From: Thiomonas sp.
GTDB taxonomy: Bacteria; Pseudomonadota; Gammaproteobacteria; Burkholderiales; Burkholderiaceae_C
Assembly (NCBI GenBank): GCA_028706735.1
Contig: JAQTVS010000013.1
Coordinates: forward strand, 1 to 18,858
Reading direction: 5' to 3'
DNA length: 18,858 nt
Made by a program: the position numbers and the translations under genes. Under the pieces are notes generated by a model that searched no databases, was not told the origin of the DNA, and was given only the letters and a program-made list of their open reading frames with translations. Positions 2,568 through 18,858 of the stretch are shown in pieces (position 1 is the stretch's first letter; every line of letters starts with the position of its first letter).

Positions 2568-2571
2568 GGAT

Positions 2572-4564: not shown

Positions 4565-4579
4565 GGCGATGGACCCGGC

Positions 4580-5218
4580 TCAGCCCGCTGCTTTGGCTTG
4601 CGCCAGATTCTGATTTTTTTCCTTGAGCGTGGCGATCAGGCCATCAATGCCCTTTTGCCCGATTTCCTGCGCAAACACGCTGCGGTAGTTGTCCACCAGC
4701 CAGATGCCCATCACATTGACATCGGTGATTTTCCAGCCAGCCGAGGTGCTTTCCAGGCGATAGTCAAGCTGCAGCGGTTCACCGTTGTTGATCACGCGGG
4801 TGCGCACGGTCACATCCTGCGCATTCGCGGGCTCGCGGTAGGGCAGCACCTTGACTTTCTGATCCTTGATCTGCTTCACCGCACCGGCGTAGGTGTAGAC
4901 CAGCAGTTGCTTGAATTGCTGCTCCAGTGCGGTGCGCTGCGCGGGAGTGGCTTCACGCCAATAGCGGCCGACGGCGCTTTGGGTGATTTTCTGGAAGTCC
5001 ATATTGGGCAGGATTTTGTTCTCGACAAACTGCATCACCACCTCGGGATTGCCCGAGCGCAGTTTTGGATCCTGCTGCACATCCCGAATGATCTCGTTGG
5101 ACATGCTCTCGATCAGTTGCGGCGGAGTCTGCGCGTCTGCTGCGTAGGCGGCCAAGGGAAGGCTCGCCATCCATGCAATGGAGGAAAGTGAAAAGGCCAT
5201 AAAAAGGCGTCGAAGCAT
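4580..5218 (-). CDS. mlaC: Periplasmic phospholipid-binding protein MlaC
   Basis: MlaC carries phospholipid across the periplasm between the MlaA complex in the outer membrane and MlaFEDB in the inner membrane. The protein has 212 residues. A signal peptide is clear: MLRRLFMAFSL, then a hydrophobic core, with probable cleavage after AYA near residue 26. The mature part shows family features including PEVVMQFVENKILPNMDF, VGRYWREATPAQRTALEQQF, and WKITDVNVMGIWLVDNYRSVF near the C-terminus. The ATG at 5218 is supported by GGAG at 5230-5227, 8 bases upstream. The frame is open another 35 codons upstream, but that part is not signal-like. mlaA lies 88 bases upstream and mlaB follows. Confidence 0.93.
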   Translation of the reverse strand: MLRRLFMAFSLSSIAWMASLPLAAYAADAQTPPQLIESMSNEIIRDVQQDPKLRSGNPEVVMQFVENKILPNMDFQKITQSAVGRYWREATPAQRTALEQQFKQLLVYTYAGAVKQIKDQKVKVLPYREPANAQDVTVRTRVINNGEPLQLDYRLESTSAGWKITDVNVMGIWLVDNYRSVFAQEIGQKGIDGLIATLKEKNQNLAQAKAAG

Positions 5219-5306
5219 GGGAGGTTCTCCAGTTTTCATGTTGTTCTGTATTAACGCGCCATCACCCCGCAAGATGACAGGGGCTCTGGTGACAGGGGGT
5301 GCCGGC

Positions 5307-6137
5307 TCAGGGCTTTGCGGCATCGGCTTTTGCTGCGCTGGCCGGCTGCGACGGCGCCTCGGTAGCAGCGTTCAAGATGCCGTCATGCACCGGACCGTAA
5401 CTGTATTTGGCCAGCGGATTGGGTTCGCCCAGATCAATGATGGGCCGATCACGCACCTCTTCGACCTGCGACTTGCGGCGCTGTTCATAGGCGCTGCGAG
5501 AAAAGACGTAGGGATCGAGCGCAATCTGGTCGAACAGATTGGAGGCGTCGAGCAGACTGGCTCGGGTGTTCACCAGATTCAGCGCCAGCGCGCCATAACT
5601 GGCGCTGGGCGGGTTGATCTGGGCGGTTGGCCCATACGCCAGAAACACGCCAGTGCCAGCCGCGTCGCGCACCGTGCTCGGTCCGTAGAACGGCAGCACC
5701 ACATACGGCCCGGAGCCCACGCCCCAGCGCGCCAGGGTGAGGCCTAAATCGTTGGGGTGTTTATAAATCCCCATCTCAGTGGCGATGTCCAGGGTGCCGA
5801 ACAACCCAAATACCGAGTTGACGCCCACGCGCATGAAGGTGCTCATGCCGTCATGCACATTGCCCTGCAGGAAATCATTGGTCATCGACCACACGTCGCC
5901 AAAATTGCCGAAGAAATTGGTGACGCCGTGACGGATCGGCGTGGGCGTAATGTCCTTGTACCCCGTGGCCACCGGCTTGAGCACGGCCCGGTCCACCTTG
6001 TCGTTGATGGTGAACATCGCCCGGTTGTAGGGCTCAAGCGGATCTTGGGGGTTGTGCGTGGCACAGCCGCTCAGGGCTCCTAATGCGACAAATGCGGCGA
6101 GTGCCGGCAGCGGGAGAATTCGTGCAGACTGGTTCAT
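5307..6137 (-). CDS. mlaA: Outer-membrane lipoprotein MlaA (VacJ)
   Basis: MlaA is the outer-membrane component that removes misplaced phospholipid from the outer leaflet and passes it to MlaC. The protein has 276 residues. It has a lipoprotein signal with lipobox LSGC, so Cys25 is the predicted lipidated residue. The VacJ signature DPLEPYNRAMFTINDKVDRA lies at about residues 32-51. Other conserved segments are VTNFFGNFGDVWSMTNDFLQ, TLARWGVGSGPYVVLPFYGP and a YGALALNLVNTRASLLDAS-like helix. The C-terminus is an Ala/Pro/Lys-rich tail. Its ATG overlaps the mlaD stop (ATGA, 6137-6134). In E. coli mlaA is unlinked; here it sits between mlaD and mlaC, so the whole pathway is encoded together. Confidence 0.94.
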   Translation of the reverse strand: MNQSARILPLPALAAFVALGALSGCATHNPQDPLEPYNRAMFTINDKVDRAVLKPVATGYKDITPTPIRHGVTNFFGNFGDVWSMTNDFLQGNVHDGMSTFMRVGVNSVFGLFGTLDIATEMGIYKHPNDLGLTLARWGVGSGPYVVLPFYGPSTVRDAAGTGVFLAYGPTAQINPPSASYGALALNLVNTRASLLDASNLFDQIALDPYVFSRSAYEQRRKSQVEEVRDRPIIDLGEPNPLAKYSYGPVHDGILNAATEAPSQPASAAKADAAKP

Positions 6138-6610
6138 TTGCCGTCTCCAGAGCCGCTCGAAGCCGCCTTGTTGTAGAGGAACTGGCCAATCAGGTTCTCC
6201 AGCACCACCGCCGACTGGGTGTTGCGAATGACCGAACCATTGGCAAGATTTTTCTCGCTGCCGCCCGGGCTGAAGTCGATGTATTGATCCCCGAGCAAAC
6301 CGGCCGTGAGAATTTTTGCCGAGGTATCCACCGGAAATTTGAACCGCTGGTCGATGGCCATCTGCACATCGGCCTGGAAGGTCTGGTTATCAAAGGTGAT
6401 TGAGGTCACACGCCCCACCACGACGCCTGCGCTCTTGACAGGCGCGTCGGACTTCAGCCCGCCGATGTTGTCGAAGCGTGCAGTCACCGTGTAAGTCGGC
6501 CCCCAGTTGATCTGCAGCAGGTTGCCTGCCTTGAGCGCCAGGAATAGCAGGGCGGCGGCGCCCAGAACGACCAGAATGCCCACCCAAAGATCTGTTTTTC
6601 GTTGATTCAT
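6134..6610 (-). CDS. mlaD: MCE-domain substrate-binding protein MlaD
   Basis: MlaD forms the hexameric lipid-binding ring of the MlaFEDB complex on the periplasmic face of the inner membrane. The protein has 158 residues. One N-terminal transmembrane helix spans about residues 8-27. The MCE domain follows, with YTVTARFDNIGGLKSDAPV, AGVVVGRVTSI and TAGLLGDQYIDFSPGG visible. A C-terminal helical segment, SAVVLENLIGQFLYNKA, probably lines the central channel. The ATG at 6610 is chosen: GGAG at 6623-6620 lies 9 bases upstream. An in-frame TTG at 6619 is too close to this site. mlaE lies 27 bases upstream and mlaA overlaps the stop. Confidence 0.93.
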   Translation of the reverse strand: MNQRKTDLWVGILVVLGAAALLFLALKAGNLLQINWGPTYTVTARFDNIGGLKSDAPVKSAGVVVGRVTSITFDNQTFQADVQMAIDQRFKFPVDTSAKILTAGLLGDQYIDFSPGGSEKNLANGSVIRNTQSAVVLENLIGQFLYNKAASSGSGDGK

Positions 6611-6637
6611 TTGCGACAACTCCAGGGCCTCATGCCC

Positions 6638-7423
6638 TCAGGTGCTGAACATCATGGCGGTCAGCACAAAATCCAGTGCCAGCACCGACAGTGAAGCGAT
6701 GACAACGGTCCGCGTGGTGGCGCGAGAAACGCCTTCGGGCGTCGGCTGGCTGCGCCAGCCTTGCAGCAACGCGATGAAAGTCACGGCCAGGCCGAACACC
6801 ACGCTTTTGATCACCCCGTTGCCGACATCCTTGAACACATCGACTCCGCTCTGCATCTGGGACCAGAACTGGCCGGAGTCCACGCCGATCATCAGCACGC
6901 CAACCACATATCCGCCCATGATGCCCACCGCGCTGAACACCGCAGCCAGCAGGGGCATGACGATGACGCCGGCCCAGAAGCGCGGCGCGAGCACGCGCAC
7001 CACCGGGTCCACCGCCATCATTTCCATGGCGGCAATCTGCTCGCCGGCTTTCATCAGGCCGATCTCTGCGGTGAGCGAGGTGCCGGCGCGACCGGCAAAC
7101 AGCAAGGCCGTGACCACCGGGCCAAGTTCTCGCACCAGAGACAGCGCCACCAGCACGCCGAGTGCGCTCGATGAGCCGTAACGCGACAGGGTGTAGTACC
7201 CCTGCAAGCCCAACACGAAACCGACGAACAGCCCGGACACGGCGATGATGACCAGCGACAGATTGCCGAGAAAATACATTTGTTGAATCAACAGGCTCGG
7301 GCGCATGAACACCCGGCCGGCCAGCAACATCAACCTGGCGAACAGCCGCGCGGCATAGCCAAGATCGCTCAGCAGCCTGCGTGTGCCCGCACCGATGGAA
7401 ACCAGCCTGTCTGTGACCATCAT
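6638..7423 (-). CDS. mlaE: Mla ABC transporter permease MlaE
   Basis: MlaE is the inner-membrane permease of the phospholipid transporter MlaFEDB. The 261-residue length and sequence fit the MlaE/DUF140 family. An N-terminal amphipathic region of about 50 residues is followed by about five membrane helices. The family core is visible as [45 protein letters not shown]; its charged loop, with the conserved Glu and Arg residues, couples to MlaF. The gene starts ATGATG at 7423, overlapping the mlaF stop TGA at 7422-7420, so translation is probably coupled. mlaD follows after 27 bases. No disruption is visible. Confidence 0.94.
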
Positions 7424-8256
7424 TCGCGTCCTCCGCGCGCCGCGGCCGTCGGGCTTAGAAAGTCTTCGCCGATGTCTGCAGCAGGGTAATGAAAATGCAC
7501 CGGCCCATCCGGCTCGCCGCGCACGAACTGATGCACCAGCGGATCGTCGCTCTCGCGCATCTGTTGCGGCGTGCCGTGGGCAATCAGGCGACCGTTGCCC
7601 AGGATGTAGACATAGTCGGCGATGTCGAAGGTCACCTCGACGTCGTGCGACACCACGATGCTGGTCAGGCCCAGCGCGTCGTTGAGGCTGCGGATCAATC
7701 GCGCAGAGATGCCCAGTGAAATGGGGTCGAGCCCCGCAAACGGCTCGTCATACATCACCAATGCCGGGTCGAGTGCGATGGCGCGGGCCATGGCCACCCG
7801 CCTTGCCATGCCGCCGGAGAGTTCCGCAGGAACCAGGTCGCGCGCGCCGCGCAGGCCGACAGCGTTGAGCTTCATCAGCACCAGATCACGGATCATCGCG
7901 GCCGGCAGATCGGTGTGCTCGCGCAGCGGAAATGCCACGTTGTCAAACACGCTCATGTCCGTGAACAGCGCACCGAACTGGAACAGCATGCCCATGCGCC
8001 GCCGCATGGCGAATATCTGGTTTTGATTGGAGACAGCGAGGTCTTTCCCCTCGAACCGCACCGAACCGCGCTGCGGTTTGACCTGCCCGCCGATGAGCCG
8101 CAGCAGCGTGGTCTTTCCTCCGCCCGATGCGCCCATCACCGCGACCACCTGGCCTGGATGAATGGTCATGTCGATATTGCGCAGAATCAGCCGCTCGCCA
8201 TAGCCGAAATCGAGTGCGTCGATCTGAACGATGGCTGAGGCGGATGGCACGGGCAT
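7420..8256 (-). CDS. mlaF: Mla ABC transporter ATP-binding protein MlaF
   Basis: MlaF powers the phospholipid transporter MlaFEDB. From the ATG at 8256 it has 278 residues. Walker A is GASGGGKTT (residues 42-50). The Q-loop region reads [20 protein letters not shown], a hallmark of MlaF. The signature is [17 protein letters not shown], Walker B is [13 protein letters not shown], and the switch histidine is in [13 protein letters not shown]. The C-terminal tail may be the part that contacts MlaB in known complexes. Neither this ATG nor the in-frame ATG at 8328 has a clear ribosome site. I prefer 8256 because homology begins about 10 residues after it. It is the first gene of the run and faces a divergent methyltransferase gene. 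Confidence 0.93.
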
Positions 8257-8430
8257 GGGATCTGTGAAAGCGGCTTTCAAGGGCGATGTCGCAACGCGCC
8301 GCCAAGACAGCAGGCGGGAAAATTGCATTCAAAACAGCATGTCATTCTAGGGATTTCCCGATCGGCCTGCCGAACCGATCCAAACGACTGCGCAGTAGCA
8401 TCGAACAATTTTCCTGGAACCTCTGCGCAC
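8257..8430. promoter_or_regulatory. Divergent intergenic region between mlaF and the methyltransferase
   Basis: These 174 bases separate two divergent genes and must hold both promoters. On the minus strand, TAGAAT (8349-8344) is a fair -10 match and would start transcription near 8337. No good -35 is seen at normal spacing; TTCGGC at 8374-8369 is 19 bases away. A dyad GATCGG (8360-8365), nine-base spacer, CCGATC (8375-8380) covers the -35 zone and could be an operator. No convincing plus-strand promoter was found. If mlaF starts at 8328, the gap shrinks to 102 bases. Confidence 0.4.
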
Positions 8431-9057
8431 ATGTCCGGACCCACCGTCGAATTCTGGAACGAACGCTTTCGCTCTCGCACCACCGGGTGGGATCGCGGCG
8501 GCGTCCACCCGCAACTGCTGCGCTGCCTCGCCTCTGGCGAATTGCTGCCTTGCCGCATCCTGGTTCCGGGGTGCGGAGCGGGGCACGAAGTCCTGCATCT
8601 GGCCGCCGCCGGTTTCGAGGTCACTGCGCTGGATTACGCCCAGCAGGCGATCGATCTGCTCAGGCAGCGCCTGCGCGAGCAGGGTTTGCGCGCCGAGGTG
8701 CTGCAAGCCGACGTGAGGCAATGGGAGGCGCCGCAACCGTTTGACGTCATCTGGGAGCAGACCTGCCTGTGCGCACTCTACCCGGACGACTGGAATCAGT
8801 ACGCGCAGCGCCTGCATCGCTGGCTCGCGCCGCAAGGTCGGCTCTTCGCCCAGTTCATGCAGACCAATAAACCCGGCGCCGAAGAGGGCTGGATTCAGGG
8901 TCCGCCCTATCACTGCGACATCCTGGCAATGCGCGCGGTCTTTCCGTCCAGCCTGTGGGAGTGGCCCAAACCGCCCTACCCGCGCGTGCCGCATCCCGGC
9001 GGCTCAACTGAGCTGGCGCTTGTCCTGACCCCCAGCCGCATCGGGTCGATGGATTAG
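8431..9057 (+). CDS. SAM-dependent methyltransferase, TPMT-like
   Basis: This is a class I SAM-dependent methyltransferase of 208 residues resembling the bacterial thiopurine methyltransferase family, which can act on thiol, selenium or tellurium compounds. The N-terminus MSGPTVEFWNERFRSRTTGW is the family lead-in. SAM motif I is ILVPGCGAGHE (residues 43-53), followed by the acidic residue after strand 2 in VTALDYAQQAIDLL. A later motif reads FDVIWEQTCLCALYPDDW, typical of TPMT relatives. The C-terminal part, with GPPYHCDI and FPSSLWEW, fits the lid region. The ATG at 8431 is preferred because similarity begins immediately; the frame is open upstream to 8323. The substrate is unknown. It converges with the regulator gene, leaving 7 bases between their stops. 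Confidence 0.82.
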   Translation: MSGPTVEFWNERFRSRTTGWDRGGVHPQLLRCLASGELLPCRILVPGCGAGHEVLHLAAAGFEVTALDYAQQAIDLLRQRLREQGLRAEVLQADVRQWEAPQPFDVIWEQTCLCALYPDDWNQYAQRLHRWLAPQGRLFAQFMQTNKPGAEEGWIQGPPYHCDILAMRAVFPSSLWEWPKPPYPRVPHPGGSTELALVLTPSRIGSMD

Positions 9058-9064
9058 GGCCTGT

Positions 9065-9820
9065 TCACGCTGGGTCGGAGGGCGAGACTGGCCCCTGTGG
9101 CGGGTTTGCCCCACTTCGGCCGTTCAGGCTGCGATATTCCCAGGCGCGCAACTTATCCTGATCAAGAATTTCCACCCCGCCGTACTGCAAATGCAGCACA
9201 CCATCCGCCTCCAGTCGTTGAAACGCTTGGTTGACCCGTTGGCGCGACAAATGGCAAAGTTGCCCGATTTCTGACTGCGTCACCCGCAATGCACCGCCGT
9301 TCGCCCCGGCCAGCGGGTGAAACAAATGGCGCAGAGTGCGCGCAACGATGGATTCCGCTCCACCCTGGTGATCATCGAGGGCCTGCAGAGTCATCAACTC
9401 CAGGCGGTCGTTGAGTTGCTGCAGCAGATAATGGCTGAAACTGATATTGCGCTCCAGCAGCCAAAGAAACGTCTCTCGTGGAACCAGTGCCAATTCGCAA
9501 TCCCTGATGGCGAGCGCTTGGTAGCGCCAGACCCCCTGGCGCATCAATGTTCCTTCGCCAAACCAAGCTCCGGCGCCAATGCCGGAATAGATCAGCGGCT
9601 TTCCGCTCACCGTCGTGACGTTGAATTTGGCAAGTCCAGAAATGACGCCGATCCAATACAAAGCGGGCATGCCATAGTGCTGCAAAGGCTCCCCGCTGCG
9701 AACGGCCTGATAATTGACCTCGGACACCACACGCGCCCTCTCGCCCGGTTGCAGGCGCCCCCACCAGCCACTACGCGCAGCCCAAATTGGAATTTGGCAG
9801 TCGTTCATTGCGTCGCTCAT
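9065..9820 (-). CDS. CRP/FNR-family transcriptional regulator
   Basis: This is a 251-residue regulator with an N-terminal cyclic-nucleotide-binding fold and a C-terminal winged helix. The effector domain shows FGEGTLMRQGVWRYQALA, aligned with the phosphate-binding cassette of CRP; the Arg is kept but the following Ser/Thr is Tyr, so cAMP binding is doubtful. There is no N-terminal cysteine cluster of the FNR type, only Cys8. The DNA-binding part reads VTQSEIGQLCHLSRQRVNQAFQRL; its recognition helix SRQRVNQ differs from the SRETVGR of CRP. GAGG at 9833-9830 supports the ATG at 9820, 9 bases away; an upstream TTG at 9823 is less likely. A Pro-rich tail ends the protein. The target genes and the signal are unknown. 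Confidence 0.85.
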   Translation of the reverse strand: MSDAMNDCQIPIWAARSGWWGRLQPGERARVVSEVNYQAVRSGEPLQHYGMPALYWIGVISGLAKFNVTTVSGKPLIYSGIGAGAWFGEGTLMRQGVWRYQALAIRDCELALVPRETFLWLLERNISFSHYLLQQLNDRLELMTLQALDDHQGGAESIVARTLRHLFHPLAGANGGALRVTQSEIGQLCHLSRQRVNQAFQRLEADGVLHLQYGGVEILDQDKLRAWEYRSLNGRSGANPPQGPVSPSDPA

Positions 9821-9906
9821 CAAAATGCGCCTCTATGCTCGTCATTTTCTGCCATCAAGGGCGCCACAACTTGTAATCGTCATGTCACAACGAAAGCGCC
9901 AAAGAT

Positions 9907-9931
9907 AAAAACCGGGGATACCCCGGTTTTT
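9907..9931 (-). terminator. Rho-independent terminator after hns
   Basis: An 11-base perfect inverted repeat, AAAAACCGGGG (9907-9917), three-base loop ATA, CCCCGGTTTTT (9921-9931), ends in a T-run on either strand. It lies 55 bases past the hns stop and is read from that side. It also isolates the regulator gene downstream. The A/T flanks make it potentially bidirectional, although no plus-strand gene ends here. Confidence 0.85.
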
Positions 9932-9986
9932 ATGTCACGCCCGCCACGGCCACCGCAGTCGATGAAGCCCGGCAAAAATGTGCAGA

Positions 9987-10286
9987 TCAGATCAGGAAAG
10001 ATTCCTTGGTCTTGCCGCCATCCACCGCGCTCTGCAACCAGCGGGGCATCTTGCCACGTCCGGTCCAGGTTTCCCCGGTTTGCGCATTGCGATATTTCGG
10101 CGCCACAGTCGACCCTTTTGACGACGCCCCAGCACGGCGCGAGCCGAGATCGGCAAGGGTAATGCCGTATTCATCCATTTTTGCGCGAATATCCGCCACG
10201 ACTGCTGCAATCTCCGCCTTGCGCTGGGCCTCCGCCTGTTGTTTGAGGGCTTCGATCTGGGATTGCAATTCTTTATACGTTGCCAT
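9987..10286 (-). CDS. hns: H-NS family nucleoid-associated protein
   Basis: This is a 99-residue H-NS-like DNA-binding protein. These proteins form filaments on AT-rich DNA and silence transcription. Residues 1-45 are a charged helical dimerisation region beginning MATYKELQSQIEALKQQAEA. A flexible linker rich in Ser, Gly and Lys follows. The C-terminal DNA-binding motif is TGETWTGRGKMPRWLQ near residues 71-86, the signature of the Burkholderiales-type H-NS. AGGAG at 10300-10296 is 9 bases from the ATG at 10286 and fixes the start; an ATG at 10292 is too close to it. The gene stands alone between two minus-strand terminators, so it is probably a single-gene unit. Confidence 0.92.
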   Translation of the reverse strand: MATYKELQSQIEALKQQAEAQRKAEIAAVVADIRAKMDEYGITLADLGSRRAGASSKGSTVAPKYRNAQTGETWTGRGKMPRWLQSAVDGGKTKESFLI

Positions 10287-10324
10287 GTGCATCTGCTCCT
10301 GTGTTGAAAGTTGAAACGTCGCAG

Positions 10325-10352
10325 ATCATACGACAGAATCACCAATAAAAAA
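10325..10352 (-). promoter_or_regulatory. Candidate hns promoter
   Basis: On the minus strand TATGAT (10330-10325) is a five-of-six match to the -10 box and lies 38 bases before the hns ATG. The -35 region at 16-17 bases spacing falls in the T-run of the upstream terminator and matches poorly. hns must have a promoter here because a terminator closes the transcript before it. The exact position is uncertain. Confidence 0.4.
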
Positions 10353-10373
10353 GCCCGCATCAAGCGGGCTTTT
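10349..10373 (-). terminator. Rho-independent terminator of the pnt operon
   Basis: A 10-base perfect inverted repeat AAAAGCCCGC (10349-10358), loop ATCAA, GCGGGCTTTT (10364-10373), lies 26 bases after the pntB stop. On the minus strand the stem is followed by TTTTTT. It ends pntAA-pntAB-pntB and separates it from hns. Confidence 0.9.
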
Positions 10374-10399
10374 CAAACACGGTGAAATCTCTTCAGAAA

Positions 10400-11836
10400 T
10401 TACTCGATCGCCTTGGTGATGTCCTCGACCACCTTTTTGGCATCGCCGAACACCATCATGGTCTTATCCATGTAAAACAACTCGTTGTCCAGACCTGCAT
10501 ACCCCGCAGCCATTGAGCGCTTGTTCACGATCACAGTTTTCGCCTTGTAGGCCTCTAAAATCGGCATGCCGGCAATCGGCGATTTTGGATCGGTTTTTGC
10601 AGCCGGATTGACCACATCGTTGGCGCCAAGAATTACCGCCACATCCGCCTGCCCGAATTCGGGGTTGATGTCGTCCATCTCGAAAACCTGGTCGTAGGGA
10701 ACTTCAGCCTCAGCGAGCAGCACGTTCATATGGCCAGGCATGCGGCCGGCCACCGGGTGAATGGCATATTTCACGTTGGCGCCGTGTTCAGTGAGTTTTT
10801 GAGCCAGTTCCTTGACCGCGTGCTGCGCGCGTGCAACCGCCAAGCCATAGCCCGGAACGATAATGACGGTTTCTGCGTTCGACAGCAGAAATGCCGCGTC
10901 ATCCGCACTTCCCGACTTGACCGCACGCTGCTGGGTTTGCGCTGCGCTGCTTGAAGCCTCCGCGCCGAAGCCGCCCAGAATCACGCTGATGAATGAGCGG
11001 TTCATCGCCTTGCACATGATGTAGCTCAGAATCGCACCGGAAGAGCCAACGAGCGAGCCGGCGATGATGAGCATATTGTTTTCGAGCGAAAACCCAATGC
11101 CAGCCGCCGCCCAGCCTGAGTAGCTGTTGAGCATGGACACCACCACTGGCATATCCGCCCCGCCGATCGGGATAATGATGAGCACGCCCAGTACGAACGC
11201 CAACGCCATCATGATGAGAAATGGCGTCCAGGACAGCGAGCTGAAAAACCAGATGCCGCAGGCAATCGCGCCAAGGCCTATGATTAGATTCACCCAATGC
11301 TGCGCTGGAAAGCGCACAGGCGCGCCCTGAAACAGCCGGAACTTATAGCGCCCGGACAATTTGCCAAAGGCAATGACAGAACCGCTGAAAGTCACTGCGC
11401 CAATGATGGTGCCGATGAACAGTTCAATGCGGTTGCCCGGCGGCAGCGGATCGCCCGCAGCCTGAACAATGCCGAAAGCATGCGGTTCCGCCACGGCCGC
11501 CACGGCAATGAAGACCGCTGCCAGACCGATCATGCTGTGCATGAAGGCAACGAGTTCTGGCATTTTGGTCATTTCCACCCGGTTGGCCATCACGGCGCCA
11601 ACCCCGCCGCCAATCACCAGCCCGAGGAGCACATAGCCAAGGCCGAGCGCACCGGCGTCTCCGCCGATTTTGATGATCAGCGCTACGGTGGTGACGACGG
11701 CAATGCCCATGCCGACCATGCCAAACACATTCCCGCGCCGACTGCTTGTCGGGTGCGACAAGCCTTTAAGCGCCTGAATGAAAAAGACCGCTGCCAGCAA
11801 ATACAGCAGGGTGACCAGATTCATGCTGAGAGTCAT
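10400..11836 (-). CDS. pntB: NAD(P) transhydrogenase subunit beta
   Basis: PntB carries the larger part of the proton channel and the NADP(H)-binding domain III of the membrane transhydrogenase, which drives NADPH formation from NADH with the proton gradient. The protein has 478 residues. Hydrophobic helices fill roughly residues 5-270. Domain III is recognised by VIIVPGYGLAVARAQHAV, AIHPVAGRMPGHMNVLLAEA, VILGANDVVNPAA and VIVNKRSMAAGYAGLDN, all intact. The start ATG at 11836 has AAGGA about 8 bases upstream. It lies 97 bases after pntAB, a gap without a recognisable gene. A strong terminator follows. Confidence 0.97.
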   Translation of the reverse strand: MTLSMNLVTLLYLLAAVFFIQALKGLSHPTSSRRGNVFGMVGMGIAVVTTVALIIKIGGDAGALGLGYVLLGLVIGGGVGAVMANRVEMTKMPELVAFMHSMIGLAAVFIAVAAVAEPHAFGIVQAAGDPLPPGNRIELFIGTIIGAVTFSGSVIAFGKLSGRYKFRLFQGAPVRFPAQHWVNLIIGLGAIACGIWFFSSLSWTPFLIMMALAFVLGVLIIIPIGGADMPVVVSMLNSYSGWAAAGIGFSLENNMLIIAGSLVGSSGAILSYIMCKAMNRSFISVILGGFGAEASSSAAQTQQRAVKSGSADDAAFLLSNAETVIIVPGYGLAVARAQHAVKELAQKLTEHGANVKYAIHPVAGRMPGHMNVLLAEAEVPYDQVFEMDDINPEFGQADVAVILGANDVVNPAAKTDPKSPIAGMPILEAYKAKTVIVNKRSMAAGYAGLDNELFYMDKTMMVFGDAKKVVEDITKAIE

Positions 11837-11933
11837 ACCTTGATTCCTTGGTGCTGCGCGCTGAATGTGTTGCGCCTATGCCTTGAAGGCCAGGCGATTG
11901 AACAACCACGCCAGAGTGCCGTTAGGGTGTTTG

Positions 11934-12236
11934 TTATTTCTTGTCGCCGGTTTTTTTCTTGAACATGGCCAGCATCCGCCGGGTCACGAGAAACCCACCA
12001 AACACGTTCACGGCTGCCAGTGCCACAGCCAGCGTTCCCATCACTTTGCCCAAGGGCGTGACGGTCAGCGCAGAAGCAAGCATGGCGCCGACGATGATGA
12101 TGGCGGAGATGGCATTGGTCACCGCCATGAGCGGCGTATGCAATGCCGGGGTGACATTCCACACCACGTGATAGCCGACGTAAATTGCTAGAACAAATAT
12201 GGTGAAGTTGATCACCAGGGGGGAAATTTCATGCAT
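11934..12236 (-). CDS. pntAB: NAD(P) transhydrogenase subunit alpha, membrane part
   Basis: This is a 100-residue membrane protein that corresponds to the C-terminal membrane segment of E. coli PntA. It starts [20 protein letters not shown]. It has three to four hydrophobic helices near residues 6-24, 33-55 and 60-84, including [20 protein letters not shown], a highly conserved stretch of the proton channel. A basic tail, [15 protein letters not shown], faces the cytoplasm. AAGGA lies about 7 bases before the ATG at 12236. It follows pntAA by 45 bases. Split alpha subunits of this type are known from Rhodospirillum and many other bacteria, so this is a normal gene and not a broken pntA. Confidence 0.95.
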
Positions 12237-12281
12237 GGTTCAATCCTTGATCACAATAGGAAGGAGCGGACGCGCAGGGGA

Positions 12282-13403
12282 TCAGGCAGTTTTGCGCAGT
12301 AATTGCCCGTCGCGGCACATCAGGCAGGCGGCAACGATGTCGTCTTCCATATTCACGACAAACCCTTTTTCCTTGTCGAACACCAGCTTGAGAAAATCGA
12401 GGACATTGCGCGCATACAAGGCTGAGGCGTCCGCAGCGACCAGGGCGGGCAAATTGGTTTCGCCTACCAGCGTGACACCGTGTCTGACCACGGTTTTTCC
12501 GGCCTCTGTCAGCGGGCAGTTGCCGCCCTGCGCTGCCGCCATGTCGATAATCACGGCACCCGGCTTCATCGACTTGACCATGTCTTCGGTAATCAGCACC
12601 GGCGCGCGGCGGCCGGGAATGAGCGCTGTGGAAATCACCACATTGGCCTGCTTCACCCGCTCGGCGACTAGCGCCGCCTGGCGCTGCATCCAGCTCGCAG
12701 GCATAGGGCGGGCATAACCGCCCACGCCCTGCGCAATATCGCGTTCCTCATCGGTTTCAAACGGCACGTCGATGAACTTGGCGCCGAGAGATTCGACCTG
12801 TTCTTTCACCGCGGGCCGCACATCGGAAGCCTCGATCACCGCGCCCAGGCGCTTCGCCGTGGCAATCGCCTGCAGACCGGCCACACCCGCGCCAAGGACG
12901 ACCACGCGGGCTGCCTTGACCGTACCGGCCGCCGTCATCAACATTGGCATGAAGCGCTGGTAAATGTTTGCCGCGAGCATGACCGCCTTGTAACCGCCGA
13001 TATTGGCCTGGCTGGACAACACGTCCATGCTCTGCGCCCGCGAGGTGCGTGGCGCGGCTTCGAGCGCAAACGCCGTGAGGCCCGCGGCGGTCATGGCCTG
13101 CAGGCCATCGGCGTCAAATGGATCGAGCATACCCACCAGCACCGTGGCGGGTTTCATCAAACTCAGTTCATCGGCCGAGGGGGGGCGAACTTTCAACACC
13201 ATCTCGGCGGCAAACGCCTCGGAACGATCGCCGATGGTCGCGCCGGCGGCGATGTACTCTTCATCCGGTGCATCCGCGCGCAAGCCAGCACCGGCCTGCA
13301 GCACGATGGCGTGCCCCTGGGCAATCAATTTTTTGACTGTTTCCGGTGTTGCTGCAACACGGGCTTCGCCGGCCAAGGTTTCTGCCGGAATGCCAATACG
13401 CAT
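12282..13403 (-). CDS. pntAA: NAD(P) transhydrogenase subunit alpha, NAD(H)-binding domain I
   Basis: This gene encodes the soluble NAD(H)-binding subunit (domain I) of proton-translocating transhydrogenase. From the ATG at 13403 it has 373 residues, starting MRIGIPAETLAGEARVAATP, the standard PntA N-terminus. The dinucleotide-binding loop is VVLGAGVAGLQAIATAKRLGA (glycines at 171-177). The segment SQANIGGYKAVMLAAN and the later GAVIIDMAAAQGGNCPLTE are conserved in the family. AGGAG at 13415-13411 lies 7 bases before the ATG and decides the start; the frame is open 40 codons upstream but is not conserved there. The protein stops before any membrane helix, and pntAB supplies that part. Confidence 0.96.
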   Translation of the reverse strand: MRIGIPAETLAGEARVAATPETVKKLIAQGHAIVLQAGAGLRADAPDEEYIAAGATIGDRSEAFAAEMVLKVRPPSADELSLMKPATVLVGMLDPFDADGLQAMTAAGLTAFALEAAPRTSRAQSMDVLSSQANIGGYKAVMLAANIYQRFMPMLMTAAGTVKAARVVVLGAGVAGLQAIATAKRLGAVIEASDVRPAVKEQVESLGAKFIDVPFETDEERDIAQGVGGYARPMPASWMQRQAALVAERVKQANVVISTALIPGRRAPVLITEDMVKSMKPGAVIIDMAAAQGGNCPLTEAGKTVVRHGVTLVGETNLPALVAADASALYARNVLDFLKLVFDKEKGFVVNMEDDIVAACLMCRDGQLLRKTA

Positions 13404-13626
13404 GGAGTCTCTCCTATGAAATCTTCTTGATTTGTGCCCAGAGACGCAATACCGACAATGCGCGCAGTCCCTGATCAGCTGCGACAACTCGGCTGGCCTG
13501 ACCGAGTCATCAAAGCTGGGCATTATCTCGCGTTTTCCCTAGGATTGCTCAAACGCAAATCGCGCGCACATGGAAAAGAGTTTTGCATTTTCCAATCCAT
13601 CCACGCACTCCAAACCCGCTCCTGCC
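13404..13626. promoter_or_regulatory. Divergent region between pntAA and the Nudix gene
   Basis: This region should carry the pnt promoter and probably the Nudix-mnmA promoter. On the minus strand GATAAT (13527-13522) is a good -10. TTGAGC (13552-13547) is a partial -35, but the 19-base spacing is long. Use of this promoter would give pntAA a leader of about 110 bases. No convincing plus-strand promoter was seen. If the Nudix gene starts at its alternative ATG, 13570, the region ends there. Confidence 0.4.
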
Positions 13627-14112
13627 ATGCCGCATGATTTGATTTTGCGTCCGCGCGTGACTGTTGCCGCCCTCATTGAGCGGGACGGCCTTTTTCTGCT
13701 GGTGGAGGAACACACCGCCGACGGCCTTCGGCTGAACCAGCCGGCGGGGCATCTGGAAGCGGGCGAAAGCCCGGAGCAGGGCGTGGCGCGCGAAGCGCTG
13801 GAGGAAACCGGCCGGGCGTTCGTCCCGCAAGGACTGGTTGGCCTGTATCTGTCGCGCACGCGGCGCGGCGCGCAGCAGGGTGATGCGGATGTGAGCTATC
13901 TGCGCCTTGCATTTTTCGGCACGGCATCGGCTGCCGATTCTGATCGCTCGCTGGATGAAGGCATCGTGCGCACGCTGTGGATGGACATCGACGCACTGCG
14001 CGCCAGTGTTGGCCGTCACCGGAGCCCCCTGGTGTTGCGCTGCGTGGAGGACTATTTGCGCGGACAGCGCTATCCGCTGGAACTGATTTCCACCGATCCG
14101 AGCGTGTTCTGA
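13627..14112 (+). CDS. Nudix hydrolase, NudJ-like
   Basis: This is a Nudix-family hydrolase of 161 residues (180 if the ATG at 13570 is used; neither start has a clear ribosome site). It resembles E. coli NudJ, which hydrolyses thiamin pyrimidine pyrophosphates and nucleoside di- and triphosphates with a metal ion. The Nudix box is at residues 41-63, GHLEAGESPEQ then REALEETGR, with the catalytic Glu residues present; the last hydrophobic position is Arg. NudJ-like features around it are LNQPAGHLE before the box and RSPLVLRCVEDYLRGQRYPLELI at the C-terminus. The mnmA gene follows after 48 bases, as in E. coli. I am sure of the family and fairly sure of the NudJ subgroup. Confidence 0.85.
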   Translation: MPHDLILRPRVTVAALIERDGLFLLVEEHTADGLRLNQPAGHLEAGESPEQGVAREALEETGRAFVPQGLVGLYLSRTRRGAQQGDADVSYLRLAFFGTASAADSDRSLDEGIVRTLWMDIDALRASVGRHRSPLVLRCVEDYLRGQRYPLELISTDPSVF

Positions 14113-14115
14113 ATT

Positions 14116-14142
14116 GGCCGCGCGCCAACGCCTTGCGCGGCC
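14116..14142. repeat. GC-rich inverted repeat before mnmA
   Basis: GGCCGCGC (14116-14123) pairs perfectly with GCGCGGCC (14135-14142) across an 11-base loop. It begins 4 bases after the Nudix stop codon. No T-run follows directly, so termination is uncertain. It lies immediately upstream of a -10-like TACAAT, where it could also be a protein-binding site. Confidence 0.5.
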
Positions 14143-14148
14143 GCTTCC

Positions 14149-14154
14149 TACAAT
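14149..14154 (+). promoter_or_regulatory. Candidate -10 box of mnmA
   Basis: TACAAT matches the -10 consensus at five of six positions and ends 6 bases before the mnmA ATG at 14161. A start of transcription at normal distance would fall on or beside the ATG, giving a leaderless mRNA. No -35 box is visible at 16-18 bases, where the GC-rich dyad lies. No ribosome site precedes the ATG, which fits a leaderless transcript. Confidence 0.4.
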
Positions 14155-14160
14155 TTGCGC

Positions 14161-15261
14161 ATGATGACTTCTCCTCGCGGTACGGTTGTGGTTGGGCTCT
14201 CCGGCGGTGTGGACTCGTCCGTGTCCGCCTGGCTGTTGAAGCAACAGGGCTACAACGTGGTGGGCCTGTTCATGAAAAACTGGGAGGACGATGACGACAG
14301 TGAATACTGTTCCTCCCGCCAGGACTGGCTCGACGCCGCCAGCGTGGCGGACCGCATCGGCATCGACATCGAGGCGGTCAATTTCGCAGCCGAATACAAG
14401 GAGCGCGTGTTTGCCGAATTCCTGCGCGAATACGCTGCCGGGCGCACGCCCAATCCTGACGTGCTGTGCAATGCCGAGATCAAATTCAAAGCGTTTCTCG
14501 ATCACGCCATGCGGCTGGGCGCGGACACAATCGCCACGGGACATTACGCGCGCGTGCGGCAAACCGATCAGGGTTTCGAGTTGCTGCGCGGCCTCGATCC
14601 CGCCAAGGACCAAAGCTATTTCCTGCACCGGCTCAGCCAGTCGCAGCTCTCGCGCACACTCTTTCCCGTGGGCGAATTGGAAAAGACCGCGGTGCGCCGC
14701 ATCGCCGCTGAGATCGGCCTGCACAACGCGCGCAAAAAGGACTCCACCGGCATCTGTTTCATCGGCGAACGCCCGTTCCGCGAATTTCTCGGCCGCTACC
14801 TCCCGGCCCGTCCCGGGCCGATGCAGACCCCGGAGGGCAAGACCGTGGGCCAGCATGTGGGACTCGCGTTTTACACCCTGGGACAGCGCAAGGGCATTGG
14901 CCTGGGCGGCAGCGCAACGGGCAACGGCGCGCCGTGGTTCGTTGCGGGAAAAGACCTGGAACGCAACATTCTCATCGTGGCGCAGGGGCACGATCATCCG
15001 CTCTTGCAAACCCGCACGCTGCGGGCCATGTCAGCCAGTTGGGTGGCGGGAGATACGCCTGAGGAAGGCCGAATGTATGGCGCAAAAACGCGCTACCGCC
15101 AAACCGATGCGTCTTGCCGTTATGGGCCGCAGAGCATGGATGCCTTTGCCCTGGATTTCGATGCGCCGCAATGGGCGGTGACGCCGGGCCAATCGGCCGT
15201 GCTGTATGCGGGCGAGGTGTGCCTGGGCGGCGGCATCATCGAAGCTGCTGGGGCGGATTGA
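14161..15261 (+). CDS. mnmA: tRNA-specific 2-thiouridylase MnmA
   Basis: MnmA puts sulfur on U34 of tRNA-Lys, tRNA-Glu and tRNA-Gln (s2U), using ATP and persulfide sulfur delivered through the Tus relay or a substitute. The protein has 366 residues from the ATG at 14161. The PP-loop ATP motif is [15 protein letters not shown] near residues 12-26. The two catalytic cysteines are present: Cys103 in [12 protein letters not shown] and Cys199 in [12 protein letters not shown], at positions close to E. coli Cys102 and Cys199. The tRNA-handling segment GHYARV and the C-terminal beta-barrel ([18 protein letters not shown]) are complete. A TTG at 14155 would add two residues and is unlikely. It converges with the CsoR-like gene 27 bases further on. 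Confidence 0.97.
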
Positions 15262-15288
15262 GCGAGCAAGGCTCCCAGCCCCGGAGCA

Positions 15289-15582
15289 TCAGGACATGCG
15301 CGCCAGCAAGGTTTCGACTTCGTCGAGCATGGCGCTGAGCTTGGGTTGCTCTCCACCCTCTGCCGCCTCCAGGCGGCCGTCGAGTTCCTGTTCGAGATAG
15401 CACACGGTCATGCGGACAAAGGTGCTGTCGAGCGCCTTGCGCACCGCCGAGAGTTGCTGCGCCACCTTCAGGCAGGGTTCGCCTTCTTCGATCATGCGCT
15501 GCACACCACGCATTTGCCCTTCGGCACGCTTGAGGCGGTTGAGAATGTCTGTGCGCGAGGCTTCGTTCGTCAGAACTGACAT
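15289..15582 (-). CDS. CsoR-family repressor with unusual ligand residues
   Basis: This is a small all-helical repressor of the CsoR/RcnR/FrmR/CstR family (DUF156), 97 residues from the ATG at 15582. The helix 1 motif RTDILNRLKRAEGQMRG and the core EEGEPCLKVAQQLSAVRKAL are typical. Cys37 matches Cys36 of M. tuberculosis CsoR. Counting on, the positions of CsoR His61 and Cys65 hold Tyr62 and Glu66. A second cysteine, Cys61, sits one residue before the His position, and there is no histidine at all in this version. Copper binding of the usual type is therefore unlikely, and a thiol or persulfide sensor is possible. GGAG sites precede both this ATG and an in-frame ATG at 15627, each by 8 bases. 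It is last in the RND-DUF2892-SLAC1 run. Confidence 0.85.
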   Translation of the reverse strand: MSVLTNEASRTDILNRLKRAEGQMRGVQRMIEEGEPCLKVAQQLSAVRKALDSTFVRMTVCYLEQELDGRLEAAEGGEQPKLSAMLDEVETLLARMS

Positions 15583-15686
15583 GGTGATGGCTCCGGGAAT
15601 CTGTATGGGCTTGGTGCTGCGCTTCATCCAATCATCTCCATCATAGGCGAGTCACCTGCATGCGTCGTGCGGTCTGCGCGGCCGAG

Positions 15687-16700
15687 TCAGGCTGAATGAA
15701 TCAAGGCAACAGGCTCCGGCGCCAACAGAGTGCCGTCGCGCAGCCCGCGTGCGGTCGCCAAGGTCAGCCAGCCAATGATCACCGAGGCCAGCGCCAATGC
15801 GAGGATGGCAAAGGTCTGCATGGCTCCGTTTTGGGAGACGAGCGCCACTTGCATGGACAACCCGGCAAACGCGGCCAGCGGGAAGGACAGCGCCCAGTGC
15901 CCGATCGTGAACGCCTCCTGCATCATCGGCTTGAAGGACAGAAAGCTCAGCACGACAAAAAACAGCGCAATCCCCCAGGCCCCTTCAAGCACTTCGACGG
16001 GGGCGCCAATCTGCGCCAGTCCAAGCCCCCCTGCCGCCGGCGGGGCGATGCTGATGAACAGCATGGGCAACAGCTTGCGCGGGAGCATGCCATAGGCCGC
16101 AACGCGCACCATGAACAACAACTGCACGATTGGAAAAAAGAACGCTCCCACGGCCCACTGCGCCACGGACCAAGTGGAGTAGCCCAAAGCAACGCCGGCA
16201 TATGGCACAACGACATTGCCCGCCGCAGCGAGAAACAGCGCGGGTGTGACGCCCGCCCAGTTCGGCCCCTTGTCGTTGGCCGCCTGCAGGCGAAAACGGT
16301 GGAACACCCAGACTGTCACCGCGAGTTGCGCCAGCGCGCCGATCATCCAGAACCCGGCCATCCAGGCGTTGTTTGCGCCAAGCACCTGCACAGCGAATCC
16401 CGCCACCACCAGCATGGCCATGGGAATCATGGCGAGCAGCGGATGGCGGACGGGGTGGCGCAAGTCGGCAAGCAGATCGGGGGTGTGCCGTTGCAGGCGG
16501 ATGCCGGTCAGGACAAGCAAAATGCCCAGCGCGCCGATGGCCGCCCAGCCCAGTCCTTGTGCAATGCCTGCAGCGGGTGCACCGAGCAAGGGCGTGGCCT
16601 GGTGCCAGGCCAGGCCCAGCCCGCCCCAGCCCATGACCAGCGCGAACCAGCCGGGAGCAAGGAATTTAAGCCGCGGCGGCACGGTGCGGGCCATGGTCAT
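15687..16700 (-). CDS. SLAC1/TDT-family anion channel protein
   Basis: This is a 337-residue membrane protein with about ten hydrophobic helices and short loops, the fold expected of the tellurite-resistance/dicarboxylate (TDT) and SLAC1 family. Known members include plant anion channels, TehA and the yeast sulfite exporter Ssu1. The N-terminus LKFLAPGWFALVMGWGGLGLAW is characteristic of the bacterial SLAC1 group. Further markers are GNVVVPYAGVALGYS, FIVQLLF-like and IAPPAAGGLGLAQIG in the middle, and FTIGHWALSFPLAAFAGLS near the end. The ATG at 16700 lies 6 bases after the DUF2892 stop; a second ATG at 16694 is possible. The transported anion is not known. Context in an RND/CsoR operon suggests export under stress. 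Confidence 0.83.
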   Translation of the reverse strand: MTMARTVPPRLKFLAPGWFALVMGWGGLGLAWHQATPLLGAPAAGIAQGLGWAAIGALGILLVLTGIRLQRHTPDLLADLRHPVRHPLLAMIPMAMLVVAGFAVQVLGANNAWMAGFWMIGALAQLAVTVWVFHRFRLQAANDKGPNWAGVTPALFLAAAGNVVVPYAGVALGYSTWSVAQWAVGAFFFPIVQLLFMVRVAAYGMLPRKLLPMLFISIAPPAAGGLGLAQIGAPVEVLEGAWGIALFFVVLSFLSFKPMMQEAFTIGHWALSFPLAAFAGLSMQVALVSQNGAMQTFAILALALASVIIGWLTLATARGLRDGTLLAPEPVALIHSA

Positions 16701-16706
16701 GCGCGG

Positions 16707-16931
16707 TCAGCCGCAGCAGTTGGCTTTGGAATCGGGCACGCCCAGCTTGCGCAGGAAAAAGCCCAGCGGGCACAGATTCGTGAAACCGAATTGCAGCAGA
16801 TTGGCGCCCACGAAGCCGGTGAACAGCAGGAACCACTGCGACACGAAGATCGGGCTGGCGGGCGCGCCCAGCAGCACCGAGATCAGGATGAATGTGCCGG
16901 CGATGACACGGATGTAGCGTTCGATTGTCAT
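16707..16931 (-). CDS. DUF2892 (YgaP-type) small membrane protein
   Basis: This is a 74-residue protein with two hydrophobic helices, near residues 9-23 and 31-51, matching the DUF2892 family. The same unit forms the membrane part of E. coli YgaP, where it is fused to a rhodanese domain; here it stands alone. The family motif NLCPLGFFLRKLGV follows helix 2, with Cys54. The protein ends NCCG, so Cys72 and Cys73 are vicinal near the C-terminus. GGAG at 16943-16940 lies 8 bases before the ATG at 16931. It is 37 bases after the RND stop and 6 bases before the SLAC1 start, so the three are surely cotranscribed. The biochemical role of stand-alone DUF2892 proteins is not established. Confidence 0.85.
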   Translation of the reverse strand: MTIERYIRVIAGTFILISVLLGAPASPIFVSQWFLLFTGFVGANLLQFGFTNLCPLGFFLRKLGVPDSKANCCG

Positions 16932-16968
16932 TTCAAAATCTCCAAGGTTGTGTTGTCAAGCATCAGAC

Positions 16969-18858
16969 TCAGGTGGCGTGCGCAGGTTCGGCCGGTGCGG
17001 CGGGCGCCGCGGGGGATTTTGGCGGAACCTTCGGTTTCACCCGGACCTGCCAGACGTAGTAGAGCAGAGGAATCACAATCAGGGTGAGGATGGTGGACAG
17101 CAACGTGCCGAAGATCAGCGACACGGCCAGCCCGCCGAACACGGGATCGGACACCATGATGGCGGAACCGAAGATGATGGCCAGCGCCGTGAGCAGAATG
17201 GGCCGCAGCCGCACCGCACCGGCCTGCGCCACCGACTCCTGAAGGCTGTAGCCGCGGGCACGGTAGTCGAGGATGAAGTCGATCAGCAGCAGCGAGTTGC
17301 GCACTACCACACCAGCCAGGGCGATGACTCCGATCATCGACGTGGCGGTGAACGACTGGTGTGTGATCCAGTGGCCGGGGAACACGCCAATGAGAGTCAG
17401 CGGAATGGCGCCCATCACAATGACCGGCAGCAGGAAGGACTTGTAATACGCCACCAGCAACAGGTAGATGAACACCAGCGCCACCATGAAGGCCGCGCCC
17501 AGATCGCGGAACACGTCGAGCGTCAAGCGCATTTCTCCGCCCCAGAGCAACTGATAGCCCTTGAGGTCGCTCGCCGGGGTTTCGGTGAATCCGAGGTTGC
17601 CAGTGGTGAAGGTCGTTCCGTTGGCCAGTTTCTTGCCGTCGAGCATGGAGTTCAGGCTCAGGGTGGCATAGACCGGGCTCGAATGAATCATCTCGCCTCC
17701 CACATAGACGACAGGATGCTGATCGCGGGTATAGATGGGTTTGGCCAGCGTGGCTTTCTCCACCGTGGCGATGCTTGAGAGCGGAATGACCTTGCCCTGC
17801 GCGTTCTGGATCGGCACGTCCAGCAGTTGCTGCGGGTTCTGCCGATCGACGCGCGGCACACGCACGATGATGTTGACCGGCTCCAGCGCATTGCTGTCGT
17901 GAATGGCGCCCACCTTCAGCCCTGACACATAGTTGTGCAGCAGCTGGATGACCTGCCCCGGCACGATGCCCGACATCGCCGCTTTCTGGCGGTCGATCTT
18001 GATGCGGTATTCAGAGATCGTGGAGGTCACCGAGTCGTCCCGGTTCATCAGGCCATAGGTCTTGTCGAAGTCGCCCAGCACGTCCTTGGCTGAGGCGCGC
18101 AGAGTCGCATAGCTCGGGCCATACAACTCGGCCATGACCTGCGCGCGCACCGGCGGGCCCGGAGGGGTTTCAAACAGTTTGATGAAGGTGGACGGGAAAC
18201 GTGCGCGCACCGGGGCAAGCTGTTCATAGAGCTTCTGCACGATTTCGTGAGACTCGACCGAACGCTCGCCCTTGCCCACGAGGTTCACGCGAATCTGCGC
18301 GAAATTGTCACCGCGCTTGAGCATGTCGCCGCGCACCAGCGAGGCAAAGTCGATCGGCGCCGCCTGCCCGACGAAGGTCTGGTAATCGACCACATAAGGA
18401 TTGGTGGCCAGCACATCGCCCACCGCGCGCGCCACCTGATCGGTGCGCTCCAGCGTGGAACCCGCCGGGGTATCGACCTGCACCAGAAAGGTGTTGGTGT
18501 TGTCGTTGGGCAGCATCTTGAGTTCAACGCCCAGAGCCGACAAAGGCCCGTTCATGCCCGAGGGCCGGATGAACTGCCAGGCAGGCATCAGCATGGCCAC
18601 GATCAACAGCAGCAGCACGGCAAGGAACATCAGGTTGCGTTGAACACGGTTGCGCAACAGCGGCTCGATCATTTTCAGATACGCCGTGTGCAGCTTGTCC
18701 TGCTTGTGTGCGCCCGCTTCTTCCAGGCTGCTGCTGTGCGCCAAGGCTTCGCGCATCGCTTTCTTTTTCAACCATAGCCGCGCCGCCCAGGGCACCACGG
18801 TATAAGCCAGAATGAGCGAGGCAATCATCGCCACCGGCACGTTGATGGGGATGGGGCG
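16969..18858 (-). CDS. RND efflux permease, C-terminal part (cut by window edge)
   Basis: This is the C-terminal 629 residues of an inner-membrane RND (AcrB-type) efflux permease; the frame is open to the window edge, and about 450 N-terminal residues are missing. The fragment begins in the region of TM6 (NVPVAMIASLILAYTVVPW), then TM7 (NLMFLAVLLLLIVAMLMPAW), a large periplasmic domain of about 350 residues, and TM8-12. In the TM10 motif GVIALAGVVVRNSLLLIDFI, Arg takes the place of the proton-relay Lys940 of AcrB. The TM4 aspartates are outside the window. The C-terminal tail is Pro/Ala-rich (PPKSPAAPAAPAEPAHAT). An adaptor protein gene would be expected upstream. DUF2892 follows after 37 bases. 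The substrate is not readable from sequence. Confidence 0.92.
   Translation of the reverse strand, partial: RPIPINVPVAMIASLILAYTVVPWAARLWLKKKAMREALAHSSSLEEAGAHKQDKLHTAYLKMIEPLLRNRVQRNLMFLAVLLLLIVAMLMPAWQFIRPSGMNGPLSALGVELKMLPNDNTNTFLVQVDTPAGSTLERTDQVARAVGDVLATNPYVVDYQTFVGQAAPIDFASLVRGDMLKRGDNFAQIRVNLVGKGERSVESHEIVQKLYEQLAPVRARFPSTFIKLFETPPGPPVRAQVMAELYGPSYATLRASAKDVLGDFDKTYGLMNRDDSVTSTISEYRIKIDRQKAAMSGIVPGQVIQLLHNYVSGLKVGAIHDSNALEPVNIIVRVPRVDRQNPQQLLDVPIQNAQGKVIPLSSIATVEKATLAKPIYTRDQHPVVYVGGEMIHSSPVYATLSLNSMLDGKKLANGTTFTTGNLGFTETPASDLKGYQLLWGGEMRLTLDVFRDLGAAFMVALVFIYLLLVAYYKSFLLPVIVMGAIPLTLIGVFPGHWITHQSFTATSMIGVIALAGVVVRNSLLLIDFILDYRARGYSLQESVAQAGAVRLRPILLTALAIIFGSAIMVSDPVFGGLAVSLIFGTLLSTILTLIVIPLLYYVWQVRVKPKVPPKSPAAPAAPAEPAHAT

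Follow-up and report, generated by a model that had tools for sequence, protein, structure and literature searches.

Persulfides and sulfite have to be held at low levels in bacteria that deal with sulfide, and the enzymes responsible are known; to our knowledge, the route by which sulfane sulfur leaves the Gram-negative cell has not been described. Here we analyze a gene run in an 18,858-nucleotide stretch of DNA (referred to below as the window; assembly GCA_028706735.1, contig JAQTVS010000013.1, positions 1 to 18,858) from Thiomonas sp., a sulfur-eating bacterium. In this run, genes for an RND permease, a DUF2892 protein, a SLAC1/TehA-family channel and a CsoR-family repressor follow one another on the minus strand. 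We consider the operon to which they belong likely to be a sulfane-sulfur-responsive (persulfide/polysulfide) export and detoxification operon. Its predicted response to reactive sulfur is well supported by sequence comparison, and from the surrounding evidence we infer that the substrates of the pump and channel may be sulfite or reactive sulfur species.

Several described systems resemble this locus in part. The cst operon of Staphylococcus aureus (CstR, TauE, CstA, CstB and SQR) also joins a dithiol repressor of the CsoR superfamily to sulfide oxidation genes and a putative exporter of an oxidized sulfur anion (PMC5480029). It differs in having TauE where the window has SLAC1, whereas an RND pump and DUF2892 are constant here and the SQR gene of the window's genome lies on a separate contig (C177). 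In Thermus thermophilus, TTHA1953 is likewise a CsoR-family protein with two cysteines, controls sox genes and binds DNA less well upon thiol oxidation, but its cysteines are C39 and C68 (29 apart), its consensus is TACNNTACNNNNGTANNGTA, and it is unlinked to its targets (PMC10318464). Outside the CsoR family, the ArsR-type regulons of SqrR, BigR, sHdrR and SoxR have two-cysteine repressors whose genes adjoin sqr, pdo and rhodanese genes and, according to a 2025 paper, also RND efflux pump and TauE exporter genes (PMC12423496). The window's regulator, in contrast, is of the CsoR family, and the pump-DUF2892 core is shared with ArsR-type loci found in this study. The FisR/BigR sulfide response of Acinetobacter baumannii likewise involves SQR, PDO and TauE or YeeE/YedE, and CydAB is upregulated in it, but the term RND is absent from the main text of that report (PMC7315123). 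With RND pumps beside sulfane-sulfur ArsR regulators already in print, the CsoR-controlled set is a variant of them. Among the papers listed by searches of the open-license literature, none described this CsoR class, the palindrome that goes with it or the pairing of DUF2892 with RND, an absence that is weak evidence, and none combined at least three of SQR, RND, OsmC and PDO.

The open reading frame list and Pfam matches for the window bore out what had been claimed in a sequence-only reading of the same DNA, namely four genes in one direction, with gaps of 37 (RND-DUF2892), 6 (DUF2892-SLAC1) and about 104 bases and a CsoR-family gene last. The RND gene of that reading proved correct as to family (16969 to 18858; ACR_tran, 221 bits) and incomplete in extent, as only the C-terminal 629 residues of the permease are encoded before the frame is cut by the contig end. 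It is followed by the genes for a 74-residue DUF2892/YgaP-like transmembrane protein (16707 to 16931; PF11127, YgaP-like_TM, 44 bits) and a 337-residue SLAC1/TehA-family anion channel (15687 to 16700; PF03595, 129.6 bits). The last gene encodes a 112-residue CsoR/DUF156-family repressor, or 97 residues from the ATG at 15582 (15289 to 15627; PF02583, Trns_repr_metal, 75.8 bits against a cut-off of 22.8). The gap between SLAC1 and csoR is 59 bases to the first csoR ATG or 104 bases to the ATG at 15582, at whose counterpart many 96-residue csoR homologs start. The close named relatives of the repressor are from Thiomonas.

The window is the whole of contig C352, one of 425 in a host genome of 2.93 Mb. 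On contig C238 (locus L040), a thioredoxin-like gene (Trx), a gene for a TolC-type outer-membrane factor (OEP), an adaptor gene (MFP) and the N-terminal part of an RND gene (L040:2-1546, open at the contig end) were found in transcription order. Because the RND parts of C352 and C238 overlap by 33 residues with 91% identity, and because the order is unbroken in relatives, we take C238 to continue the window. In the longer contigs of relatives (L041-L045, L048, L054), Trx, OEP, MFP, RND, DUF2892, SLAC1 and CsoR genes follow one another without interruption, with mnmA next on the opposite strand. Adaptor, permease and outer-membrane factor, the makings of a tripartite pump, thus stand in one run, contiguously in these relatives and across two contigs in the window's genome. 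In 11 of the 12 other genomes of the genus, SLAC1 adjoins whichever parts of the run their contigs hold, and in the remaining one (G004) no SLAC1 match was obtained.

To place this arrangement in a wider set, GTDB species genomes were scanned with 38 aligned repressors, and the best 80 of the 501 related places were used as loci; by title they come from Thiomonas, Rubrivivax, Rhodoferax, Curvibacter, Leptothrix and other named groups, some being assigned only to a higher group such as Proteobacteria. Gene order in the relatives was called with codon-usage scoring, the DNA being G+C rich, and neighborhood counts were made by tblastn. Upstream of csoR on the same strand, DUF2892 was found in 71 of the 72 loci whose upstream DNA extends for 1 kb or more, RND in 63 of the 65 with 2.5 kb and the adaptor in 55 of the 57 with 6 kb; an OEP of the type on C238 was found in 18 of the 53 with 7 kb. 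One exception, L130, has no adaptor, RND, DUF2892 or OEP, and another, L111, keeps DUF2892 and a perfect copy of the palindrome described below and gave no RND match. Within 7 kb of csoR on the same strand, the 80 loci hold SQR in 19 cases, OsmC in 17, SLAC1 in 16, a PDO-like-rhodanese fusion in 6, an unnamed family of 253 to 255 residues in 2 and a CMD-family gene in 1. All but one of the 19 SQR genes lie on the pump (upstream) side, and one of the csoR-linked SQR proteins scored 586 bits against the solved SQR 3sz0. The PDO-like gene encodes a metallo-beta-lactamase fused to a rhodanese domain and is given this name by inference, because its score falls under the cut-off of the sulfur dioxygenase model.

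Adaptor, RND, DUF2892 and CsoR are therefore a near-constant core, and SLAC1, SQR, OsmC and the PDO-like-rhodanese fusion are variable. The sequence-only reading had treated the RND pump as an addition to a sulfur module; the counts reverse these roles, RND being core and SLAC1 the optional part. That reading fared better with its four-gene order, which recurs in the genus while the core extends far beyond it, and with the conservation of the pump and the co-occurrence of SQR, PDO or rhodanese genes, both of which had been left to be checked. The window's own operon has no linked SQR, PDO or rhodanese gene, such linkage being present in part of the relatives. Its assignment to a sulfur-related module is supported by this co-occurrence and by the predicted operator at other sulfur genes.

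The repressor contains two cysteines, Cys52 and Cys76, and no histidine. In all 75 relatives that could be aligned (of the 80 loci), the two cysteines are spaced by 24, the second is followed by Phe in 55 cases and by Tyr in 20, and position +29 holds Glu in 73 and Gln in 2; one or two histidines are carried elsewhere by 28 of them. An ungapped alignment to a solved FrmR puts the second Cys just ahead of the His ligand place. The Cys-His-Cys metal ligand places of CsoR, as we take them to be, were positioned on the window's repressor by alignments. Because the repressor has no His and the 75 relatives all have Phe/Tyr at the His place and Glu/Gln at the second Cys place, it is not a copper CsoR. 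Nor is it the CstR-type repressor considered in the sequence-only reading, because the spacing is 24 in the window and in 75 of 75 relatives, rather than the 29 of CstR, which pairs C31 with C60 (PMC5480029). FrmR and RcnR were also rejected, with NCBIfam equivalog scores of 29.8 bits (cut-off 133) and 21.6 bits (cut-off 138), and the copper, nickel and formaldehyde sensor models were all far under their cut-offs. At class level, a repressor match at E 1e-15 was found in 8 of 273 genomes (the window's genome excluded), and six of the seven repressors read there have C-x23-C (L199, L200, L202, L203, L204 and L206); a plasmid search at E 1e-15 gave no match. With this class, one more arrangement of cysteines is known in a family whose members mostly bear the annotation of metal or formaldehyde sensor, and many such annotations would for that reason need correction.

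A palindrome, ATACCC-N4-GGGTAT, is common to the upstream regions of the operon. The perfect site occurs 17 times, in 17 of the 80 loci, compared with a mean of 0.05 and a maximum of 2 for 59 alternative palindromes of identical letter composition and with none in four first-order Markov copies. Operon starts were examined in 55 of the 80 loci, over a stretch that begins 300 bases ahead of the called start of the leading pump gene (OEP or MFP) and ends 40 bases past it; loci without a called pump gene or with one less than 200 bases from a contig end were left out. The best match had at most two mismatches in 33 of the 55 and at most three in 49, against 1.5% and 7.6% of control stretches. In the window's genome, a one-mismatch site separates the Trx gene from the OEP gene on C238 (L040:4354-4369), and the operon therefore probably starts at the OEP gene; the window's set is the 3' end of a probable six-gene operon comprising outer-membrane factor, adaptor, RND, DUF2892, SLAC1 and csoR. 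A second one-mismatch site is found in that genome at G000:C314:18883-18898. In L101, the site precedes a SLAC1 gene that is not adjacent to the operon.

As the motif was derived from the same set of loci, genome-wide tests of the site weigh more. In 30 repressor-bearing genomes there were 19 perfect sites, in 18 genomes, versus 1 for the reversed pattern. Flanks of 18 of the 19 placed 13 at the operon (in one genome at its SLAC1 gene) and 5 next to a gene of the CMD family (Pfam run on one of them); in two of the five, genes for a methyltransferase and a rhodanese come after it. In L119, a perfect site stands ahead of the gene for an FAD protein (Pyr_redox_2). At class level, 41 of 274 genomes have a perfect site, and with the window's genome excluded it is present in 6 of the 8 genomes with a distant repressor versus 35 of the 265 others (Fisher P 0.0002). 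The seven perfect sites in these six genomes flank a PDO-like gene three times (L240, L243 and L245) and, once each, SulP with DUF6691 (L241), a sox run (L242), an OsmC gene (L244) and a DUF2892-MFP-RND set (L239). A near-match, ATACCCCTCTTGGTAT, is conserved in five genomes of the genus (L141, L150 and three more), ahead of a thioredoxin-like frame in the two read, and was not counted as a target.

The predicted regulon also includes cytochrome bd, the sulfide-resistant oxidase. This oxidase reportedly supports growth under sulfide (PMC4815019). A near full-length gbsR-type gene is held by 7 of the 13 genomes of the genus (an eighth has a fragment), and in all seven a site with at most one mismatch, with differing spacers, stands ahead of it and a cydA-like frame comes after it (Pfam on one cydA). 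The window's own genome gave no match to the gbsR gene.

With good support, we infer that the small repressor binds ATACCC-N4-GGGTAT and that sulfane sulfur reacts with Cys52 and Cys76, which probably pair across the dimer, releasing the DNA. The reduced repressor would occupy the palindrome until sulfane sulfur linked its cysteines and freed the operon, whereupon the pump, the DUF2892 protein and SLAC1 would be produced. With less support, the tripartite pump may expel organic or inorganic persulfide or polysulfide, or a toxic product, from the cell envelope, the cargo being suggested by the company that the pump keeps. The DUF2892 protein may handle sulfane sulfur at the membrane through its conserved Cys54, and SLAC1 may let out an oxidized sulfur anion such as sulfite.

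Among 70 aligned relatives of the DUF2892 protein, Cys54 is kept in 99% and Cys72 in 96% of filled cells, some relatives stopping before Cys72. The window's protein is in the same Pfam family as the membrane unit of Escherichia coli YgaP, a rhodanese-DUF2892 protein, but it is free of any rhodanese domain, and its match to the YgaP transmembrane domain (2mpn) is weak, with an E value of 0.001. The SLAC1 protein belongs to the SLAC1/TDT family, which includes the yeast sulfite exporter Ssu1, as judged from its PF03595 score and from Phe273, which aligns with Phe262 of the solved TehA homolog 3m72, presumably the pore Phe. In a quick tree of 23 rows (L026 left out), the SLAC1 proteins of the operon were separate from the second TehA-like protein of the genus, with 10 of 19 inner branches open and long branches flagged. 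A SLAC1 related to the window's was also found in another genus of the family (G013, L049 8239-9297), adjoining SoxA, SoxZ, SoxY and SoxB-like (5'-nucleotidase Pfam) genes, with neither pump nor repressor in the stretch read.

Several observations weigh against the proposed sulfane-sulfur regulon. No site with at most two mismatches was found at 22 of the 55 operon starts, and since the motif was first found in these upstream regions, its frequency in them is no independent evidence. Two of the eight repressor-bearing genomes at class level (G176 and G209) have no perfect site, and the repressor of the former (L205) has no second cysteine. In the 11 Thiomonas-genus loci read, the separate SQR gene has no site at up to two mismatches, which counts against a simple regulon of all sulfide genes. 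The site at cytochrome bd could belong to the adjacent GbsR-type regulator, since in two other bacteria, one of them Chromobacterium, regulators of this type next to cytochrome bd genes act as repressors of the operons to which they belong (PMC11837568 and PMC6096048); the two footprinted CydE sites given for Alishewanella are unlike the palindrome. Finally, the RND protein is by sequence closest to the HAE/multidrug branch rather than to the metal pumps. The window's part of it scored 105.2 bits on the HME (CusA/CzcA) model TIGR00914 (cut-off 701), and the full-length RND of L091 scored 451 bits on the multidrug (HAE-type) model (cut-off 1250) versus 236.7 on CusA/CzcA, both below cut-off.

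That affinity keeps alive a rival in which the pump expels drugs, dyes or hydrophobics and reactive sulfur only triggers its expression, as has been reported for pumps under MarR/MexR control. In further agreement, sulfane sulfur has been reported as an inducer of MarR-type multidrug-resistance regulators. On the other hand, the pump is accompanied by DUF2892 and, in some of the loci, by SQR, OsmC, rhodanese or PDO-like genes, and this holds under two unrelated regulator families, one of which has known persulfide sensors. This company points to a sulfur-specific cargo without proving it, and we regard a multidrug pump as a serious but rather unlikely account of the operon.

The second regulator family came from a profile of 14 pumps, which at E 1e-200 matched strongly in 169 of the 398 genomes examined at phylum level; DUF2892 was within the flank in 9 of the 30 loci kept. 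The pump family is broad, and most matches to the profile therefore need not share a function. Outside the window's clade, in six of the DUF2892-bearing neighborhoods (L247, L248, L250, L251, L253 and L254), the repressor beside MFP-RND-DUF2892 is of the ArsR type and not CsoR; L246 has CsoR, L249 has DUF2892 and no regulator was noticed there, and L252 and L255 have no DUF2892. The six ArsR neighborhoods include SQR in three, OsmC in two (BLAST) and rhodanese in four (Pfam). By eye, the rhodanese gene in L250 and L251 is followed by glutaredoxin- and SecB-like frames, and as this is a common gene run, rhodanese there may be a mere neighbor. The ArsR cysteines are 66 to 67 apart in four of the six neighborhoods, or 66 to 68 in five of seven with L255 included, L247 and L248 being the ones that differ. 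The repressor of L253 had the solved HlyU, biofilm growth-associated repressor and YgaV as its best or near-best matches. BigR senses persulfide via C34 and C100, at about the spacing found in the four ArsR neighborhoods (PMC7315123).

One pump-DUF2892 pair thus occurs with repressors of two unrelated families that both feature a pair of cysteines. Tentatively, MFP-RND-DUF2892 might be a sulfane-sulfur export machine widespread in Proteobacteria, a tripartite pump dedicated to persulfides or polysulfides, in which the DUF2892 cysteine passes sulfur at the membrane and persulfide sensors of two families are interchangeable, including a new C-x23-C class of the CsoR superfamily that has an operator and a regulon of its own. 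Should reactive sulfur be what the pump exports, the question of transport would be answered; if it is not, sulfide signaling would control an efflux pump.

Metal efflux, by a copper- or nickel-sensing CsoR/RcnR with a CusA/CzcA-type RND, is suggested by the family names, CsoR-family members being mostly known as metal sensors, and by the metal-rich water that Thiomonas inhabits. We consider it improbable in view of the missing histidine, the ligand places, the sensor model scores and the RND scores given above. In addition, no protein with the P-type ATPase signature DKTGT[LI]T was found in the 8 kb around csoR at 79 loci, metallochaperones not having been searched for. An FrmR-like formaldehyde or electrophile sensor driving a general detoxification operon would fit the many homologs named "FrmR family" and the ungapped alignment to FrmR, but the low FrmR model score and the company of sulfur genes make it very improbable, formaldehyde genes not having been searched for as such. 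Chance adjacency of genes without a shared function is the least credible account, since the observation that, in the loci read, SLAC1 stands between DUF2892 and CsoR only where the window is closely related is outweighed by the order kept in the genus, by the site at the non-adjacent SLAC1 gene and by the conservation counts across 80 loci, which refute it for the core.

Some further genes were noted at these loci. A protein of 253 to 255 residues with no Pfam match is encoded between CsoR and SLAC1 in L097 (10253-11020) and L132 (10386-11147). In L105 and L113, a FixG/CcoG-type ferredoxin gene (Pfam on L105) is divergent from the pump operon upstream of MFP, with degenerate palindromes in the gap. 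The window encodes on the plus strand, at 8323-9057, a TPMT-type methyltransferase (Pfam, 91 bits) with weak similarity to TehB, which may be a further enzyme for detoxifying sulfur or selenium; a methyltransferase weakly similar to TPMT is also encoded in the CMD-rhodanese set of L153. On the minus strand of the window lie ordinary Mla lipid-transport genes (MlaA, MlaC, MlaD, STAS and ABC; 4286-8328) and a gene for a protein with an H-NS C-terminal domain (9987-10292).

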